A DNA stretch of 64,000 nucleotides from Pedobacter petrophilus (GTDB lineage Bacteria; Bacteroidota; Bacteroidia; Sphingobacteriales; Sphingobacteriaceae): the NCBI RefSeq assembly GCF_009674725.1, contig NZ_WKKH01000013.1:62001-126000 (forward strand). The letters are read 5' to 3'. Under the pieces are notes generated by a model. The model was not told the origin of the DNA, searched no databases, and saw only the letters and a program-made list of their open reading frames with translations. Every line of letters begins with the position of its first letter. Position 1 is the stretch's first letter. Shown piece by piece: positions 5,793 through 27,594 of this stretch. Position numbers and translations under genes: made by a program.

Positions 5793-7238
5793 TTATAAAC
5801 TGTCTCTAAATATCGGCAAGCTCATACAATGGAAACCGCCCCGGGCCCTGGATAGTTCTGCCGATGGCATTAAAATTAAGGTGTCGGTAATGGTTTCCAC
5901 ATCTGCCTTGCCACTTTCCAAATCCTGAATTAAGTCTTTCACATCCACAACATTAAAACCTGCTGCTTTAAAGGCCTCTACTGTTTTATCATTCCGGTCA
6001 TAACCTAAAACTACCCCTTCTTTAATGGCAAGGAGGTTACAGGAATCAGTCCATTGCTCTCTTGAATCATAAGGGAACTGGTTATTTCCGCTGTAAATAA
6101 TTTTTGTTGGCTCCGTACTTTTTAAGTCGTTCTGGCTAATGTCGTTCAATAATGCTTCCACATGTTCGAAATGTTTCGGCTCCTGTGGATTGGCTTTTGT
6201 AAACTGAATGGCAGTGGTTGACTCTAACTTTTCCGGCTCTTTTAAAAAGTTGATCGGTTCATAAGGATTGTACTTTGGCGAATGCGCAATAGAATTTAAG
6301 ATCACCCAGGTATTGCGTTTCACCTGGGTAAAAACGGTATCGAGGTGCATATAATCCCTTTTGCTAGGGATTTTTACTACGGTTACTTTCTCTACTACAT
6401 CATGATCAAATAACAATTTGATGGCTTCATTTGCACCGTGCTCAGACGTCCTTTCGCTGCAGCCAATTAAGACGTGGCTTGGACTTACCATCATCACATC
6501 ACCACCTTCTAAAGTGGTGCTAAATGCGGGCTCATCTCCCGGGCGTAAAAAATGCATGGTTACATCGGGAATTTCCAAAACGTTATTTCTATAGTCAGCG
6601 AACAGGGGGTGATTGAAGAAAATATAACGCATTAAAAGCGTTTCGCGAACGCGTGCTTTTTTTGCCGGTTTATTTAACAGAATATGGTTATTAATAGTAA
6701 TGCCGACATCCCTGGTGAAGATTAAATTTGGAATGGGTGCAAAAATCATGGTATCGTTTGCTAAAGTTCCGGAGATAAAAATCTCTGCCAGTTCTTTCGG
6801 ATCGGTGTTGGTGAGTTCAGTCTGAACTTTATACGTACAGCCTTCTATGGCGCAAACTGCAGCAACCAGTTTTTTCCTGATCGATTCATTTTCGAGCATT
6901 TCGCTTAACAGATTCTGAATTTCGATGACCGAAGTTGAATGATGGAAATCGGGGTGATTTGGTTTGAAAAAGTTTCTGTTCGCTTCAGGTGAATCAATTT
7001 GAGCCAGTTTTCCTTTGATCTTTTCAGGATCCAGAAAGTACATCAACAGCTTAAGATAATAATCGTATTCGCCTTTTCGAATGGTATCCAGGTGAACAAT
7101 ATCTTCGAAAAGCCAGTCTTGCGCTTTCGAGGGAACTACTTTCCCCAGGCCACTATCCGGACTATGAATTAATAATTTGCGCAACCGACCGATCTCGGTG
7201 TTTACGCTCACTTTAAAATTTGATTGCTGCTCGCTCAT
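5793..7238 (-). CDS. arcA: Arginine deiminase
   Basis: Converts L-arginine to citrulline and ammonia. The 481-residue pentein-fold protein carries the family's motifs: FTRDVGI near residue 175, EGGDVMM, the His-containing HLDTVFT block and the catalytic Cys471 in GGFHCMSLP near the C-terminus. It is longer than the ~410-residue Pseudomonas enzyme, as in other Bacteroidota. It is the first gene of the arcA-ctlX operon and is transcribed divergently from argS, which also uses arginine. There is no arcB or arcC next door, so citrulline probably goes to CtlX, not to ATP-yielding fermentation. Confidence 0.93.
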   Translation of the reverse strand: MSEQQSNFKVSVNTEIGRLRKLLIHSPDSGLGKVVPSKAQDWLFEDIVHLDTIRKGEYDYYLKLLMYFLDPEKIKGKLAQIDSPEANRNFFKPNHPDFHHSTSVIEIQNLLSEMLENESIRKKLVAAVCAIEGCTYKVQTELTNTDPKELAEIFISGTLANDTMIFAPIPNLIFTRDVGITINNHILLNKPAKKARVRETLLMRYIFFNHPLFADYRNNVLEIPDVTMHFLRPGDEPAFSTTLEGGDVMMVSPSHVLIGCSERTSEHGANEAIKLLFDHDVVEKVTVVKIPSKRDYMHLDTVFTQVKRNTWVILNSIAHSPKYNPYEPINFLKEPEKLESTTAIQFTKANPQEPKHFEHVEALLNDISQNDLKSTEPTKIIYSGNNQFPYDSREQWTDSCNLLAIKEGVVLGYDRNDKTVEAFKAAGFNVVDVKDLIQDLESGKADVETITDTLILMPSAELSRARGGFHCMSLPIFRDSL

Positions 7239-9641: not shown

Positions 9642-10406
9642 ATGATTAATGAACTGATTTTACTTTGCCTTGTGGCTTTCGCGGCGGGTTTTATAGATGC
9701 GATTGTGGGTGGCGGAGGTTTATTGCAAACGCCTGCTACACTCCTGATCTTGCCACATTATCCGGTAGCTACGCTCCTGGGAACTACGAAAATACCCTCC
9801 ATTGCCGGTACCACTTTAGCAGCATTCAAATATTCCAGGCAGGTTAAATTCAATTTGAAGGTTCTGGCGGCTTGTGCTTCAACGGCCTTTTTTGCAGCCC
9901 TTATGGGTGCATTTCTGGTCAGCCGGATTGATAACGCCGTAATTAAACCGATTATTTTAGTGGTGCTGATTCTAGTGGCACTTTATACTTATTTTAATAA
10001 ACAATTCGGAATCCATCAGGAGAAAAACCATTCCGTAAAAAAACAGGTGCTGATGGCGGCAGTATTTGGTTTGGTAATCGGTTTTTATGATGGCTTGATC
10101 GGGCCAGGAACCGGATCCTTCCTGATTTTGGTATTTATTGCCGTATTGGGCTTCGATTTTATTGGTGCCAGTGCACATGCCAAAATTGTAAATATTGCCA
10201 CCAATTTGGCTGCAATTATTTATTTCAGTTATTCTGGCCACATTCTTTTTCAATACGCCATACCAATGGCAGTCTTTAATCTGTGTGGCGCTCATTTCGG
10301 CACGCGGCTGGCTTTACTTAAAGGAAATAAGTTTGTGAGGATCTTTTTCCTGGTTGTTGTTTTCGGCACCATATTGAGGTTCGCTTATGATATTTTATTA
10401 AAATAG
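9642..10406 (+). CDS. TauE/SafE family sulfite/organosulfonate permease
   Basis: A 254-residue inner-membrane protein with about eight hydrophobic segments arranged as two similar halves. The first half has AAGFIDAIVGGGGLLQTPATL and the second GFYDGLIGPGTGSFL, the paired glycine-rich motifs of the TauE/SafE (DUF81) family. Members export or import sulfite, sulfonates or related anions. The substrate here cannot be read from sequence. The glycosylase gene follows after 6 nt, so the two are probably co-transcribed without an obvious functional link. Confidence 0.9.
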   Translation: MINELILLCLVAFAAGFIDAIVGGGGLLQTPATLLILPHYPVATLLGTTKIPSIAGTTLAAFKYSRQVKFNLKVLAACASTAFFAALMGAFLVSRIDNAVIKPIILVVLILVALYTYFNKQFGIHQEKNHSVKKQVLMAAVFGLVIGFYDGLIGPGTGSFLILVFIAVLGFDFIGASAHAKIVNIATNLAAIIYFSYSGHILFQYAIPMAVFNLCGAHFGTRLALLKGNKFVRIFFLVVVFGTILRFAYDILLK

Positions 10407-10412
10407 GTATAC

Positions 10413-11120
10413 ATGTTCGCAACCTTTGATACAGAAAACTTTCATCAGCTTTGCGATCTATTAGGAAAGAAAGATTCAGACTTAGCCACGGTTTTAAATC
10501 AATATAGCTATCCACCACTGTGGTCAAGGCCGAACACATTTGAATCGTTAATTCACATTATTCTGGAACAACAGGTTTCCCTGGCTTCTGCATTAGCAGC
10601 TGTAAATAAACTGAAGGAAAAGATAGGGGAGATCAGGCCGGAGTTGTTACTTCAACTTAATGATGAAGAATTTAAGGCCTGTTATTTTAGTCGGCAGAAA
10701 ATGGCGTATGCCCGTGATCTGGCGCAGAAAATAGTGAGCGGGGATTTGTCATTGCCGCAGTTGGCATTGCTTGATGATGATCAGATCCGTACCAAACTAA
10801 AAAGTGTAAAAGGGATCGGCGACTGGACGGTTGATATTTATCTCCTATTTATTCTTCACCATGTGGATGTTTTTCCGTTAGGAGATCTTGCCGCAGTAAA
10901 CGCGATGAAAAGTTTGAAAAAGCTTCCGAAGAAAATGGACAAGATTGATCTATTAGCGGTTACAACACAATGGAAACCGTATCGAACCGTAGCCGTGATG
11001 ATGCTCTGGCATTATTACCTGGAAGAAAGGAAAGCTGGTTTAACAAAAAAGCCCGTCCGGCAAGGGCAAGAAAAGAAATCTTGTCTAAACCGTACGGGCA
11101 TTTCAGTTTGTATTTATTAA
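10413..11120 (+). CDS. DNA-3-methyladenine glycosylase, AlkA-type (HhH-GPD)
   Basis: A base-excision repair enzyme of 235 residues that removes alkylated purines. The helix-hairpin-helix LKSVKGIGDWTVDIYLLF (129-146) is followed by the catalytic Asp158 in FPLGDLA, the HhH-GPD arrangement. QVSLASA near residue 55 is also family-typical. It lacks the N-terminal TBP-like domain of E. coli AlkA. The last ~25 codons lie inside the terminator hairpin of the opposing lipoprotein gene, so this tail (VRQGQEKKSC...) is probably a recent or neutral extension. Confidence 0.9.
   Translation: MFATFDTENFHQLCDLLGKKDSDLATVLNQYSYPPLWSRPNTFESLIHIILEQQVSLASALAAVNKLKEKIGEIRPELLLQLNDEEFKACYFSRQKMAYARDLAQKIVSGDLSLPQLALLDDDQIRTKLKSVKGIGDWTVDIYLLFILHHVDVFPLGDLAAVNAMKSLKKLPKKMDKIDLLAVTTQWKPYRTVAVMMLWHYYLEERKAGLTKKPVRQGQEKKSCLNRTGISVCIY
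11045..11099 (-). terminator. Terminator for the 11.2-kb lipoprotein gene, inside the alkA-type 3' end
   Basis: GCCCGTCCGG (11051-11060) pairs with CCGTACGGGC (11090-11099), one mismatch. Read on the minus strand it ends in six T (complement of 11045-11050). It lies downstream of the minus-strand lipoprotein stop and overlaps the 3' coding end of the convergent glycosylase gene. Confidence 0.7.
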
Positions 11121-11175
11121 AAAGAACCAGGCTTTTCAGCGAACCCTGAATATCGTTAAAACAACGATCTCCAAT

Positions 11176-11700
11176 TTAATTAGTCACCTTAATCTGTAAG
11201 CTATCCGGTACTACAATACCACTAATCGTCGATGAATTATATTTGATCGTATAATTTCCAGCTTTAGTAATGGCGTAGGCATCTACAAGGTTAAAATCAG
11301 CACTAGTACTGTCGCCGGCATTTAATTTTTTGTAACTATCGGCCGGAGGTGGCATTACGCGTTTCGCCATCGCGCCTTTGTAATCTATGGGGGTGTAATC
11401 ATCCATCGCCACATCCAGATACTTGCTCATCAGCCGCTCAAATGGCGTGTGCCAGATACAAAACTTAGTAACGGTATCGGTATTGTTGTATACGGTAAAC
11501 CTCATGTTGATCGGTCCGCCGAGTTTAGGCACACCAATTACAGTGAGTTTTCCAAGAATCGGATCTGCTTTTTTTTCTGCGGCTGCCTGCGATACCAGTG
11601 TTGTATCGGTGTTGCCGCCCGCTGCTGCTTTCTTTTTTGAAGAACTGCAAGCGGTAAATAAAGCCAGCCCGAGGCCAGCCACAATCATTATTTTTTTCAT
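11176..11700 (-). CDS. Small lipoprotein resembling the N-terminal domain of M35 metalloproteases
   Basis: 174 residues with lipobox LFTAC (Cys18), then a Ser/Lys/Ala-rich linker. Residues ~45-172 form an immunoglobulin-like beta domain. The pattern WHTPFERLMSKYLDV...YKGAMAKRVMPPPADSY...LNAGDSTSADFNLVDAYAITKAGNYTIKY resembles, from memory, the beta domain preceding the catalytic domain of deuterolysin-type (M35) proteases. There is no HExxH, so no protease activity is expected. A strong terminator follows it. It lies 10 nt from the AI-2E permease gene and may share its transcript. Confidence 0.6.
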   Translation of the reverse strand: MKKIMIVAGLGLALFTACSSSKKKAAAGGNTDTTLVSQAAAEKKADPILGKLTVIGVPKLGGPINMRFTVYNNTDTVTKFCIWHTPFERLMSKYLDVAMDDYTPIDYKGAMAKRVMPPPADSYKKLNAGDSTSADFNLVDAYAITKAGNYTIKYNSSTISGIVVPDSLQIKVTN

Positions 11701-11710
11701 TATTTATCAA

Positions 11711-12835
11711 TTAACTTTTATCTGTTCCTGTTTTGGTTTCTACGGGTTTCTTTTTTCTAAATGCCGGGAAGGTCATTGGACTTCTCGACGGGCGTTCATC
11801 TCCTAATAAAACTCCCCATTGTTTAAATGACTCTGTACGGTCGAAAATAATTTTCAATACCGCCACAATTGGGAGGGCGAGGAACATACCGGATACACCA
11901 GCAATGCTTCCGCCAATAAACACCCCGAGAATCGCGAATAAGGCATTAATTTTAACTTTAGAACCTACAATTCTCGGCATTAAAATATTATTATCCAAAA
12001 ACTGAACGAACGCGATAACACCCAAAACGGTGATGACCGGCCATAATTCCTGAGAAGAAGTTAGGGTTAAAAGTACACCAATTAAATTACCAATCAAGGC
12101 GCCAACATAAGGGATTAAATTTAAAATGGCGAAAATTACCCCAATTAACAAGGCATGTTTAATTCCAATCAGCATCAGGATACCACCAAGTAAAATGGTC
12201 ATGTAAGTAATTTGAATCAGTAAGCCAATCAGGTAACTTTTAATAATAGATTCCGTTTCATAGATGGCATCTTTCACTTTCGCGTGGTCATCTGTGCGAA
12301 ACCACATAAAGATAAATCTGAGCAGAATATCCTTGTAAAATAACATCAGGTAAATGTAAATCGGCAATAGACCAATAAATACGAATATACCACTTAAAGT
12401 AACGGCAGCACCACCCGCTAAAGATGTACCCATGTTCATTAAATCGTCGCTCTTACCCTGTATAAAGGCTTTTTGCTGCTTATCATCATAATGGGTAATT
12501 CTGCTCACCCATTCACTGAGCGAGTTGATGTGTTGGGTAACATTGGCTTTAATCTGCGGAAAATCCTGCACCAGCATGCCAATTTGATTGGAGAAAAACC
12601 AAACCACCAGCGCAACAAATAGTGCAACCAGTAAGATGGGTAAAATGATCGACAGGGTTTCCGGAACCTTTTTTCTTTTAAGGAAGCGATATACCGGCAG
12701 GAGCATAATACTAATGAAAAAGGCCATCAGCATCGGCATAATAATGTCTTTTGCAACCACCATAACCGTTACCAGCGCCATCAGGCCCAGCAGTTCTATT
12801 GATCGCCTTACCGTTAGCGGAAAATTATTTGTCAT
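11711..12835 (-). CDS. AI-2E family transporter (PF01594-type permease)
   Basis: An inner-membrane protein of 374 residues from the ATG at 12835 (MTNNFPLTVRRSIELLGLMALV). An upstream in-frame ATG at 12907 adds 24 polar residues and is less likely. It has the family layout: two N-terminal membrane helices, a soluble middle domain (~residues 80-135), then several membrane helices with LIPYVGALIGNLIGVLL and a glycine-rich segment near VGSKVKINALFAILGVFIGG. Family members export diverse small molecules or act as Na+/H+ antiporters; AI-2 transport is not implied. The C-terminal ~35 residues are basic and cytosolic. Confidence 0.88.
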   Translation of the reverse strand: MTNNFPLTVRRSIELLGLMALVTVMVVAKDIIMPMLMAFFISIMLLPVYRFLKRKKVPETLSIILPILLVALFVALVVWFFSNQIGMLVQDFPQIKANVTQHINSLSEWVSRITHYDDKQQKAFIQGKSDDLMNMGTSLAGGAAVTLSGIFVFIGLLPIYIYLMLFYKDILLRFIFMWFRTDDHAKVKDAIYETESIIKSYLIGLLIQITYMTILLGGILMLIGIKHALLIGVIFAILNLIPYVGALIGNLIGVLLTLTSSQELWPVITVLGVIAFVQFLDNNILMPRIVGSKVKINALFAILGVFIGGSIAGVSGMFLALPIVAVLKIIFDRTESFKQWGVLLGDERPSRSPMTFPAFRKKKPVETKTGTDKS

Positions 12836-24099: not shown

Positions 24100-24816
24100 A
24101 TGGAGGCTATTTCAAAAATCGTTTTTACTAACTGGTATCATGCTTTTATAGCGATGTTCCTTTTCTTCAATATTATTTATTGGGGATTCTCGCTTACTGC
24201 TAAGCTTGTTTTTCGCTATTTCGAGCGCAAAAAACAATTGATTCAGGTAGATAATCACTTTCTATATCCAGGTCAACAAAAAAAGGAAATTCTGCAATCT
24301 ATGAGATCAATATTTATTTTTAGCTTACAAGGTATTGTAATACAACAGGGAATCGTAAATGGTTGGTTGCATATCTCAACGACTTTAAGTTGGTGGCTCT
24401 TACCTCAAATCATCATTCTTTTTATATGGAACGAGGTCCATTTTTATTTGAGCCATTGGTTATTACATACTAAATTTATGATGAGGAATATTCATCATGT
24501 ACATCACCATTCAAAGGAACCCACCGTGTTTTCTACGTTTAGTTTCCACTGGGTAGAAGCATTTTTGCTGGGTACGGTCATATTTTTTCCATTGTTGATT
24601 TTTCCTTTTCAGCTTTGGGCGATACTTTCTTTACCGATTATGAGTTTACTTATTAATCTGATGGGTCATTCCAATTATGATCTGTTTCCTAGTCATCAAC
24701 CAGAACATATGCTTAAGTTTTCCTACCGCCACAGCATGCACCACAAGCGTGGAAGAGGAAACTTAGGATTTTTATTACCGTGGCTAGATCAACTTTTTAA
24801 AACCACCGCAAAGTAG
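24100..24816 (+). CDS. Sterol desaturase / fatty acid hydroxylase family membrane enzyme
   Basis: 238 residues with four to five membrane helices and the eight-histidine diiron signature of the FA_hydroxylase (PF04116) family: His114/His119/His123 (EVHFYLSHWLLH), His132-133 and His135-137 (IHHVHHHS), His190 (MGHSNYD) and His211/His214-215 (HSMHH). Members use O2 to hydroxylate or desaturate acyl chains, sterols or carotenoids. It is first in a tight operon, 6 nt before the KASIII-fusion gene, so its substrate is likely the KAS product or its acyl precursor. Confidence 0.88.
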   Translation: MEAISKIVFTNWYHAFIAMFLFFNIIYWGFSLTAKLVFRYFERKKQLIQVDNHFLYPGQQKKEILQSMRSIFIFSLQGIVIQQGIVNGWLHISTTLSWWLLPQIIILFIWNEVHFYLSHWLLHTKFMMRNIHHVHHHSKEPTVFSTFSFHWVEAFLLGTVIFFPLLIFPFQLWAILSLPIMSLLINLMGHSNYDLFPSHQPEHMLKFSYRHSMHHKRGRGNLGFLLPWLDQLFKTTAK

Positions 24817-24822
24817 AAACAA

Positions 24823-26694
24823 ATGACTAAAGTTTATATCACGGCAACAGGTAGTTACCTGCCTAATGAACCCGTTACAAATGACGAAATGGAAGGTTTT
24901 TTAGGGTTAATTAACGAAACTCCTTCCCGTACAAGAGCGATTTTTTTAAGAAAAAACGGAATAAAAACGAGGTTTTATGCTTTAGACCGTCAACAAAATA
25001 CCACGCATAAAGCTTACGAAATGGCAGCGCTTGCTGTTAAAACTTGCATCAATAATAGTTCGCTAGACATTAATGAAATAGAGATGCTCAGTACGGCAAC
25101 TACGCAAAGCGATTTGCCAGTGCCAGGTTTTGCGAGTATGGTGCATGCAGAAAGTGGGATTGGACGCTGTGGGTTGGCTTCGCACCAAAGTGTTTGTGCC
25201 GCAAGTTTAATGGCGATACAAAACGCCTATTTACAGGTGAAATCTAACACTGTTCAAAATGCAGTTTGCTGTGCAGCCGAGTTGCCCAGCAGAATGTTTA
25301 AAGCGAAGCGTTTTGAAGGTCAGCAAGCTTTTGCAAATGGCGAAACAACCTTGCCTTTAGAAACGGATTTTCTACGATGGATGCTGAGTGATGGAGCAGG
25401 AGCGATGTTATTGCAAAATGTACCGAGTAGGCAAAAAAAATCGCTTGCGATAGAATGGATAGATTTAAAATCCTTTGCGCATGCACATGAATTATGTATG
25501 TATACCGGAACGCAAAAAGAAGCTGGCGAGATTGGAAAAACATGGTTGGATTATGACAACATCAGCAAAGCAAATATTGCAGGGGCGCTAAACCTCAAAC
25601 AGGATATGAGCCAAGTAGACAATATCATTAAATTGGGTATTCAGCGCTTTTTCGAATTGGTGGATGAAAATCAATTCAATCCAGATGATATTGATTGGTT
25701 GGTTTGTCATTACTCTTCCCATCATTTTAGGCCACAGATTGTAGAATTGCTTAAAAAAGGTGGTGTAGAAATACCAGCAGAAAAATGGTTTACCAATCTT
25801 TACACTACAGGTAATATTGGTTCTGCCTCTATTTTTGTGATGCTGGATGATTTAATTAAAAGTGGTAGCCTAAAGGCTGGTCAAAAAATACTGTGTATGG
25901 TGCCAGAAAGTGGCAGGTTTATCACAGGTTATATGTTACTAACGGTAACCGGCGAAAAACCTGAAGGTTCATTTACAGAAGATATAGCAGAAATTAAACC
26001 ACCTGAAATTCGGGTACAGGATAAGCCGATTCAGGAATGGTTGGTGCGCCAGCTTTCTGTTGTTTGGTTCGATTTCGAACGCGGTCTGCAACAAGTGCCA
26101 ATTGTGAAGAAAATCTTTAACGGGAGTTTGACATTGGAAGAATACAAACGCTTGTTGGTCAACCTTCGTCAGCAAGTAATTGATGGTTCGCAATGGATAG
26201 CAAGAGCAGCTTCTAATGTGAGTATGGAGTATTTTCCGGTTCGTTCAGCTTTTATAAAGCATTCGTCTGATGAACACAAAGATTACCAGATTTTAGAGAA
26301 AAACTACATCAATTGCGGTGGATTAGCGGACGAAATTCTGACCGGTAATAAAAATATTGGGAGCGAAGCGCTCAGCGCCTATATGTTTCATCGGGCAAGT
26401 CAGCCAAACCCATTTGATTTATTGGGTGGCATGTTTATTATTGAAGGATTGGGCAACAGGGTTTCTGGAAAGTGGGGCAGGGCAATTCAGCAACAACTTA
26501 ATTTAGATAAAGATCAGGTTTCATTTTTTATCTACCACGAATCTAGTGACAGCAACGATAATCATTTTGAACGGTTTGAGCAGGCCATCCAATCAGAATT
26601 GCTGACCAAAGAAATGGCGGAAAAGATAGTGAAAACAGCGAAGGTAGTAGCTAAGCTTTACACGCTTCAATTACAAGAACTAGACAATTTTTAA
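24823..26694 (+). CDS. KASIII-like ketosynthase fused to a heme-oxygenase-like diiron (iron-containing redox enzyme) domain
   Basis: 623 residues. Residues 1-~380 are a thiolase-fold KASIII/FabH-like domain with Cys125 (QSVCAAS), His296 (VCHYSSHH) and Asn331 (TTGNIGSAS), so the condensing triad is complete. Residues ~405-620 are a helical heme-oxygenase-like domain with candidate metal ligands Glu541 (FIIEGLGNR), His572 (IYHESSDS) and Asp579/His581, plus His480 and Glu484/His485 (HSSDEHKDY). Such HDO domains oxidise or decarboxylate acyl and amino acid substrates (UndA is one example). Condensation and oxidation are therefore joined in one chain. Product unknown. Confidence 0.85.
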   Translation: MTKVYITATGSYLPNEPVTNDEMEGFLGLINETPSRTRAIFLRKNGIKTRFYALDRQQNTTHKAYEMAALAVKTCINNSSLDINEIEMLSTATTQSDLPVPGFASMVHAESGIGRCGLASHQSVCAASLMAIQNAYLQVKSNTVQNAVCCAAELPSRMFKAKRFEGQQAFANGETTLPLETDFLRWMLSDGAGAMLLQNVPSRQKKSLAIEWIDLKSFAHAHELCMYTGTQKEAGEIGKTWLDYDNISKANIAGALNLKQDMSQVDNIIKLGIQRFFELVDENQFNPDDIDWLVCHYSSHHFRPQIVELLKKGGVEIPAEKWFTNLYTTGNIGSASIFVMLDDLIKSGSLKAGQKILCMVPESGRFITGYMLLTVTGEKPEGSFTEDIAEIKPPEIRVQDKPIQEWLVRQLSVVWFDFERGLQQVPIVKKIFNGSLTLEEYKRLLVNLRQQVIDGSQWIARAASNVSMEYFPVRSAFIKHSSDEHKDYQILEKNYINCGGLADEILTGNKNIGSEALSAYMFHRASQPNPFDLLGGMFIIEGLGNRVSGKWGRAIQQQLNLDKDQVSFFIYHESSDSNDNHFERFEQAIQSELLTKEMAEKIVKTAKVVAKLYTLQLQELDNF

Positions 26695-26706
26695 AGACGA
26701 TATTGC

Positions 26707-27594
26707 ATGTTGCATAAAAAAGAATATTTCGAAAACATGGTGAACGAGCCGAGAAACCCCAGCCATTGGCATGCGATGTTTCTTGATAAAAGCGTTCCCT
26801 TCAATGCAGATGCTAAAGCTGCCTTTTTGTACGATTCTTCTACCAAAAGTAGGCAGTTTCTTTATCCAGTGGCAAAAATGTTTGCAAGACTTTCTATTGT
26901 GCTGATGCAATTTTTTAAGATTTTCATTCCAAACTTAATCAATGCGCCAAAAATGCTGCATAAAAGTTTGTTTTGGGGCATGAAGTATTTTATCACGCCA
27001 GAAGCAAACTTTATTATTCTTCGGCATTTTTACCTCGGTTCAGAAGTGCTTCGCTTTATCAAAGACAATGTGGATGGGGCGGAAGATATTCCAATGAATC
27101 CCCTGAAGCCTTTAGGGGTTACTGATGTAAAAGACAATCTTTTTTTGGAGCATGACCTTAACCTTTACAATTTCATCATCAACCTCAACAAGGCGATGGA
27201 AGAGAAGGGTTTAAAAATAACGAAAAAAGAAAGCCCAGATTTTAGTGCGATTACTGCAGGCGAAATTCCATTTAGAGAGTTTAGAGACGGGTGGACAAAT
27301 TTCATCGATTTAGGTACTGCAATAGAAATTTTCACTCCAGTATATCAGTTTTATCTTACAGATAATGATTTTTGGAGAGCAACCAATTCTTTACAGCTTG
27401 ATGAAGTAATAGGGATTTATGCGGCAACTATTATGGATTGTCCCGAGAAACTTACGGCGCTAAATAATAAACACCCCATGATTCCGCTACCTACTGCGGG
27501 CGCTGCTTTCAGGCTTTTGCTACACGGATTTTCAACAGAAGTTTTGCATGCATTATTGGTACAAGGAAAGCTGGCACAGATGGAAAGCACTTAG
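26707..27594 (+). CDS. DUF6999-like protein of the KASIII-oxygenase operon
   Basis: 295 residues, mostly helical, 12 nt after the KASIII fusion. It starts MLHKKEYFENMVNEPRNPSHWHAMFLD. It has one hydrophobic stretch (FARLSIVLMQFFKIFIPNLI, ~60-80) and a His/Glu-rich helical part (FIILRHFYLGSEVLRFI; LEHDLNLYNFIINLN). I assign DUF6999 from memory of Bacteroidota proteins found beside ketosynthase and ferritin-like genes. The helical His/Glu content suggests a membrane-associated, possibly metal-binding, tailoring protein, but the function is not established. Confidence 0.6.
   Translation: MLHKKEYFENMVNEPRNPSHWHAMFLDKSVPFNADAKAAFLYDSSTKSRQFLYPVAKMFARLSIVLMQFFKIFIPNLINAPKMLHKSLFWGMKYFITPEANFIILRHFYLGSEVLRFIKDNVDGAEDIPMNPLKPLGVTDVKDNLFLEHDLNLYNFIINLNKAMEEKGLKITKKESPDFSAITAGEIPFREFRDGWTNFIDLGTAIEIFTPVYQFYLTDNDFWRATNSLQLDEVIGIYAATIMDCPEKLTALNNKHPMIPLPTAGAAFRLLLHGFSTEVLHALLVQGKLAQMEST

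Follow-up and report, generated by a model that had tools for sequence, protein, structure and literature searches.

A ketosynthase fused to a heme-oxygenase-like domain and linked to a DUF6999 protein: a possible oxidative lipid pathway in Pedobacter petrophilus and scattered other bacteria

What might a cell make with a condensing enzyme that carries an oxidase-like domain on the same chain? The question is raised by three genes of Pedobacter petrophilus (source genome size 5.47 Mb) that lie head to tail on the forward strand, within positions 24100-27594 of the window analysed here, a stretch of 64,000 nucleotides (nt) from contig NZ_WKKH01000013.1 (positions 62,001 to 126,000; assembly GCF_009674725.1). 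They encode a histidine-box protein of the fatty-acid-hydroxylase family, a ketosynthase (KAS) joined to a domain of the heme-oxygenase-like dimetal oxidases (HDOs), and a DUF6999 protein, with gaps of 6 nt and then 12 nt, and the open reading frames (ORFs) lie as given in a preliminary description of this DNA. That description had also claimed a condensing enzyme fused to a heme-oxygenase-like domain, which is borne out by an StlD-like KAS and by matches to PF14518 and the CADD family, and had pointed to no characterised pathway with this exact set. None was found in the open-access literature that we searched (most subscription journals lie outside it), nor any description of the KAS-HDO fusion or of the gene set, nor any paper naming DUF6999. 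The parts are of known kinds; their combination is new.

Our leading reading, held tentatively at a probability of about 0.42, is a self-contained oxidative lipid or polyketide pathway made of a KAS condensation, an HDO oxidation in cis and a DUF6999 step. The KAS would condense two fatty-acyl or beta-ketoacyl thioesters drawn from primary metabolism and, to judge from its fold and clade, would yield a 2,5-dialkylcyclohexane-1,3-dione-type product or an alpha-substituted beta-keto precursor, like DarB and StlD. The tethered HDO would act in cis on this product as a dimetal O2-dependent oxidase, by desaturation/aromatisation or hydroxylation, and would replace the partner DarA. DUF6999, whose linkage to the fusion is constant and whose divergence matches, may perform the next step on the HDO product or in complex with it; in some lineages, the histidine-box hydroxylase would add a late hydroxyl group. 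This reading draws its support from a KAS that is nearest to StlD and keeps its triad, from an HDO that is the most conserved part of the set and whose candidate ligands are invariant, from the lack of a DarA match in most fusion-bearing genomes, from a link between the fusion and DUF6999 that is unbroken in forward and reverse searches, from HDO and DUF6999 identities that correlate closely, and from Pseudoalteromonas, which has the same three parts unfused.

Firstly, we examined the KAS domain. Pfam assigns ACP_syn_III_C to the fusion at 51.4 bits (cut-off 26.6); the model for the N-terminal part of ketosynthase III, with 23.0 bits, falls just below its cut-off of 24. In the AlphaFold model (mean predicted local distance difference test, pLDDT, 83), the closest fold in the PDB is StlD (5gk0_A; Z 48.9, root-mean-square deviation 2.0, 368 aligned residues), with 39% identity in sequence; among the matches listed, the next family has a Z of at most 37 and OleA one of 36. 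The 50 matches listed in each search are ketosynthases or type III polyketide synthases, the fold comparison thus covering the KAS part only. The complete triad of Cys125, His296 and Asn331, as noted earlier, is present and invariant in 33/33 rows of the alignment that underlies the triad, ligand and identity figures and that counts in the window's own sequence; His296 aligns with the histidine of the StlD HYSS motif. A tree of 42 rows separates six DarB-type proteins, in a clade of their own (support 100/100), from 35 HDO-linked ketosynthases, Pseudoalteromonas among them, whose clade has a support of 91/95, below the tool's strong mark and with a long-branch warning. We place the KAS next to DarB as a sister rather than within it: it stays under both curated cut-offs, and 15/19 fusion-bearing genomes have no DarA match. 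The KAS has the fold, the active-site triad and the small gene set in common with the StlD/DarB ketosynthases of the isopropylstilbene, dialkylresorcinol and flexirubin pathways; unlike them, it lies in its own clade and under both NCBIfam cut-offs, is fused to an HDO, mostly lacks DarA in its genome and adjoins DUF6999. Since its modelled fold is nearest StlD, a cyclohexanedione or alpha-substituted beta-keto product appears likelier than a simple head-to-head condensation.

Secondly, we assessed the C-terminal domain. Haem_oxygenas_2 (PF14518, cut-off 28.9) scores 30.8 bits on the full fusion and 33.4 bits on the domain alone, and matches 17/18 HDO rows at E <= 0.1, all but that of Pseudoalteromonas. 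A profile comparison by hhalign with an alignment of five HDOs, four of them above the CADD-family cut-off, gave a probability of 94.6 (E 7e-8, 197 columns). Against the sequences of the PDB, the profile has a sole match at E <= 10, 3dde (E 4.5e-7), a heme-oxygenase-like TENA/THI-4 protein that comes, we assume, from Shewanella. By sequence and profile relation, we therefore assign the domain to the HDO superfamily, which includes UndA, CADD, SznF and BesC. Its mean pairwise identity (0.70) is the highest of the set, ahead of DUF6999 (0.63) and KAS (0.60). Known HDO reactions comprise desaturation, C-C cleavage and N-oxygenation (PMC13108848), so that an aromatisation-like oxidation and a cleavage are both chemically open. 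The second of these leads to the rival reading that survives best, although we consider it rather unlikely: a UndA-like HDO would cleave or decarboxylate a KAS-made beta-keto acid oxidatively, to an alkene, a ketone or a shortened lipid. UndA and BesC are HDOs that cleave C-C bonds (PMC13108848), and a beta-keto acid could chelate the metal as the carboxylate does in UndA; against this, a link to UndA in particular is absent, the 3dde entry having a title without a function and the profile match being to the CADD family in a comparison that excluded UndA itself, and the KAS is far nearer StlD than OleA (Z 49 vs 36).

Thirdly, we analysed the distribution of the genes. A genome scan with the fusion gave 29 named loci, in Pedobacter, Flavobacterium, Chitinophaga, Flavihumibacter, Niastella, Sphingobacterium, Flagellimonas, Ulvibacterium, other metagenome-assembled genomes, Paenibacillus and Cohnella, the best match among named genomes being Pedobacter psychrophilus (95% over the fusion). 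DUF6999 lies directly downstream of the fusion in 29/29 and the hydroxylase upstream in 17/29; five other DUF6999-positive genomes, from a scan of the class, hold all three genes each, one hydroxylase being cut by a contig end. When the ORFs of at least 80 amino acids (aa) were clustered across these 34 loci, eight families recurred in at least 3 of 23 genus groups: the fusion and DUF6999 in 23/23 each, the hydroxylase in 17/23 and five others, such as sensor kinases, in at most 5. DUF6999 itself occurs in 6/295 genomes of the same class and 17/399 of the same family (own genome included in both), and, for the class to which a Paenibacillus belongs, in 1/200, namely the genome from which that search started; in the family, the HDO subfamily lies immediately upstream by coordinates in all 17. 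The pair is seen in 35/35 genome entries preselected for the fusion or DUF6999, which include three pairs with identical coordinates and so represent at most 32 distinct genomes. Conversely, a search led by the HDO domain matched 4/395 genomes of the phylum (own included), and all four have a KAS fused to the HDO and DUF6999 adjoining. Such profile scans can miss divergent domains, PF14518 having failed to list the fusion of the own genome; the counts are hence minimum values, and an absence does not amount to proof. The neighbourhood search proposed in the preliminary description thus finds the linkage unbroken in both directions: the recurrence in other genomes of the fusion with DUF6999 directly downstream is beyond chance, and the conserved core is the fusion plus DUF6999, smaller than the three-gene set first proposed.

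The pair is rare and patchily scattered, yet spans Bacteroidota, Paenibacillaceae and, unfused, Pseudoalteromonas. On a Pseudoalteromonas megaplasmid, the same parts are encoded by separate adjacent genes, one for a ketosynthase, one for a 226-aa protein with the annotation "iron-containing redox enzyme" and one for DUF6999 (321.9 bits). The second protein aligns end to end with the fused HDO at 41% identity; this cluster (locus L041) is flanked by a 185-aa ORF without a family match (6624-7181) and by a 634-aa protein whose matches, of Ig-like/rhombosortase type, are weak (9828-11732). In the KAS tree, Flavobacterium tegetincola is nested within Pedobacter (support 100/99) and the four Paenibacillaceae form a single clade amid Bacteroidota, which suggests horizontal transfer. 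Among viral contigs, 26 candidate stretches gave 0 confirmed. Some copies look frame-broken, through either an assembly error or decay at an early stage: the KAS in L024, DUF6999 in both L027 and G685, and a copy with a TAG in G892. A small module spread so patchily would suit a niche trait, and the product could be protective, an oxidised lipid or a quinone-like antioxidant, or the HDO could handle metal or oxygen stress like Acinetobacter DtpC, an HDO required for desiccation tolerance (PMC13232832). We regard this as improbable: stress genes do not recur next to the module across the 34 loci, and the main text of the DtpC paper does not contain the words "ketosynthase" or "ketoacyl".

We then considered the metal site. 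The canonical set consists of six ligands (3H/3C) from three core helices (PMC13108848), after which the helices are named here by analogy. Five of the six align in the fusion, with the CADD family and with 3dde alike (E484, E541, H572, D576 and H581), and are invariant in 33/33 rows. On helix 1, the motif is E-x5-H in the CADD set (E80 and H86, both invariant) and E-x2-H in 3dde, where the fusion has E-x2-D, the alignment there being of low confidence; the motif of the fusion family, H480-x3-E484-x2-D487, is kept in 33/33 rows and in four divergent ones (Pseudoalteromonas, L075, L076 and L077). H485, invariant in the 33 aligned rows, is a Gln in L076 and thus less likely as the sixth ligand; this leaves H480 and D487 as the better candidates for a replacement. 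The preliminary description would have been refuted by a domain devoid of metal ligands: five of the six canonical positions line up in the alignment, in a set that is not fully canonical, the helix-1 His being displaced. Unlike canonical HDOs, the domain also sits behind a ketosynthase and, in the clade of the window, has a 2-residue insertion in helix 3: H-x3-D-x4-H is found in the window and in 25/29 named loci, and the standard H-x3-D-x2-H in four Paenibacillaceae, in Pseudoalteromonas and in 8/8 further loci (L036-L040, L075-L077). Because the standard form is spread across other lineages, the aligned sequences place the insertion as a later event within a single group. This insertion, present in many Bacteroidota copies, and the out-of-register His would fit a domain that has lost its dimetal chemistry and now has a structural or substrate-binding function, with the final product made by the KAS and DUF6999. 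We judge this slightly less probable still than a protective role, as the invariance of the five aligned positions, and of H480 and D487 beside the gap, speaks against it, as does the rank of the HDO as the most conserved domain of the set. The own genome encodes a second HDO-like protein (L058, G000:C55:10492-10938), which has relatives in other Bacteroidota and whose score of 26.8 bits to PF14518 falls short of the cut-off; an alignment of that family (A7) had no profile relation to the fused HDO.

The third protein, earlier labelled DUF6999-like, is a full-length member of DUF6999 (PF22523; 399.7 bits, cut-off 27; profile positions 2-274 of 275), a family for which Pfam names no function. 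Its model is helical (pLDDT 82). In 17/17 diverse rows, Pseudoalteromonas counted, R106, H107, H149, D150, D201, D232, N254, K255, H256, H273 and E278 are invariant, a residue set that resembles an active site. Foldseek found no fold match at E <= 0.001 and the highest Z from VIA was 4.3, which decides neither for a new nor for a known fold, and the sequences of the PDB gave none at E <= 10. HD-domain proteins have the residue pattern H...HD...D, which R106-H107, H149-D150 and D201/D232 recall; no such relation was found, hhalign giving a probability of 0.2 against two HD proteins of the own genome, in a comparison that did not include PhnZ-type proteins, and the Pfam HD domain giving no match at E <= 10 in the 17 rows. 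A hidden HDO was rejected (hhalign 0.2 against alignments A4 and A6). The family search also responds in the Caulobacter vibrioides control genome.

We looked for DarA, taken as the gene adjoining DarB in loci L043-L045; such an adjacent pair is published as darA/darB (PMC3992019 and PMC3949708), with DarA called a DAR-aromatase (PMC3949708) and with darA and darB of Chitinophaga pinensis DSM 2588 making the flexirubin resorcinol (PMC3992019). The DarA reference genes have no NCBIfam name and, in 2/3, only sub-threshold flavodoxin/FMN-reductase matches in Pfam. DarA has no match in 15/19 fusion-bearing genomes, P. petrophilus itself among them, and the four that hold it are also the ones in which a DarB-type gene (518-644 bits) occurs unfused, apart from the fusion; it adjoins DarA in three (L043-L045) and lies on a different contig in the fourth (G024). 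The fusion in general does not, therefore, rely on DarA, and an ordinary DarAB resorcinol pathway with DarA acting from elsewhere in the genome, for which the StlD/DarB-like KAS would speak, is largely refuted. Chitinophaga pinensis YS-16 (locus L027) carries the fusion locus, its DUF6999 being the frame-broken copy mentioned above.

Several observations weigh against the pathway of KAS condensation, HDO oxidation and DUF6999 step. The KAS stays below the NCBIfam cut-offs of both the StlD/DarB subfamily (NF005293, 421.8 < 450 bits) and DarB (NF053539, 389 < 550 bits), so its product may differ from theirs. The canonical helix-1 His has no in-register counterpart in the fusion, in a region of low alignment confidence, and the unfused HDO of Pseudoalteromonas does not match PF14518 at E <= 1, its placement coming from alignment alone. 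Identity correlations are highest between HDO and DUF6999 (r 0.947; KAS-HDO 0.863, KAS-DUF6999 0.807; none reached in 0/999 permutations), and shared ancestry explains part of them, for which reason a partnership of DUF6999 with the HDO rather than the KAS is only hinted at. An enzymatic role for DUF6999 is a guess, the protein having no recognised fold or relative, and product, substrate and metal are all predicted by analogy. The boldest version is doubtful: a new bifunctional enzyme whose DarB-like KAS would pass its nascent product, a cyclohexanedione or beta-keto lipid, directly to a fused dimetal oxygenase with non-canonical ligands (H480/E484/D487, helix 1), in place of DarA-type aromatisation, and a DUF6999 that would found an unrecognised enzyme fold and complete an oxidised ring lipid of Bacteroidota, Paenibacillaceae and Gammaproteobacteria. 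As to its significance, the locus would provide a two-gene route, minimal and portable, to an oxidised lipid. Its fusion of a ketosynthase with an oxygenase may channel an intermediate that is unstable, its HDO ligands probably depart from the usual set, and DUF6999 gains a defined genetic context.

Table 1. Features of the locus, in window coordinates.
Feature	Position	Strand	Basis
Fatty-acid-hydroxylase-family (PF04116) histidine-box protein gene, 238 aa	24100-24816	+	open frame and Pfam
KAS-HDO fusion gene, 623 aa	24823-26694	+	single open frame; relatives with the same architecture
Ketosynthase domain, residues 1-376	24823-25950	+	StlD E 7.2e-82; structural Z 49 to StlD
KAS catalytic Cys125	25195-25197	+	invariant in 33/33 aligned rows
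KAS catalytic His296	25708-25710	+	invariant in 33/33 aligned rows
KAS catalytic Asn331	25813-25815	+	invariant in 33/33 aligned rows
Linker, residues 377-399, of varying length, longest in Paenibacillus locus L025	25951-26019	+	alignment; pLDDT <50 at 379-387
Heme-oxygenase-like (HDO) domain, residues 400-623	26020-26691	+	PF14518; profile comparison with CADD family; PDB 3dde
Helix-1 motif H480-x3-E484-x2-D487	26260-26283	+	E484 counterpart of canonical Glu ligand; canonical His displaced
E541, counterpart of canonical second-helix Glu ligand	26443-26445	+	alignment
H572-x3-D576-x4-H581, putative helix-3 ligand motif with 2-residue insertion	26536-26565	+	alignment
DUF6999 (PF22523) protein gene, 295 aa	26707-27594	+	open frame and Pfam

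The first gene of the locus encodes a PF04116 protein (FA_hydroxylase, 81.4 bits, cut-off 31) with three hydrophobic stretches, probably membrane-bound, in which H119, H123, H132, H135, H136, H150, H190, H211, H214 and H215 are invariant in 18/18 rows. Histidine boxes and hydrophobic segments are common to it and the sterol desaturase/fatty acid hydroxylase family (OlsE and kin), the match to the OlsE model itself reaching only 23 bits (cut-off 475); no PDB sequence matches at E <= 0.01. Its standing as an obligatory third member of the set did not hold: it adjoins the pair in 22/34 loci and not in the other 12. A profile search of six genomes without an adjacent copy found no match in four (three Paenibacillaceae and Flagellimonas), and weak matches elsewhere in Niastella and Chitinophaga (109 and 68 bits, where adjacent copies reach 357-394). 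The hydroxylase is an optional, putative tailoring gene.

Around the locus, the sequence TANNTTTG, which we take to be the Bacteroidetes -7-type box, was found 97 times in the window against 102 expected, with no excess over chance and 0 occurrences between 23249 and 25829. The operon has a GC fraction of 0.389 and the window one of 0.350; at about the 81st percentile, this is no strong sign of an island. StlD/DarB-like ketosynthases were also seen on plasmids: on a Streptomyces plasmid (L047:3706-9110), one stands with an acyl carrier protein, a flavin adenine dinucleotide (FAD) monooxygenase and an SCP2 protein, a DarB-like cluster distinct from the fusion locus, and on Bacteroidales plasmids of Phocaeicola, Prevotella and Bacteroides (L046:1909-3634, L048:1855-3625, L049:1906-3631), they adjoin a TetR or helix-turn-helix regulator.

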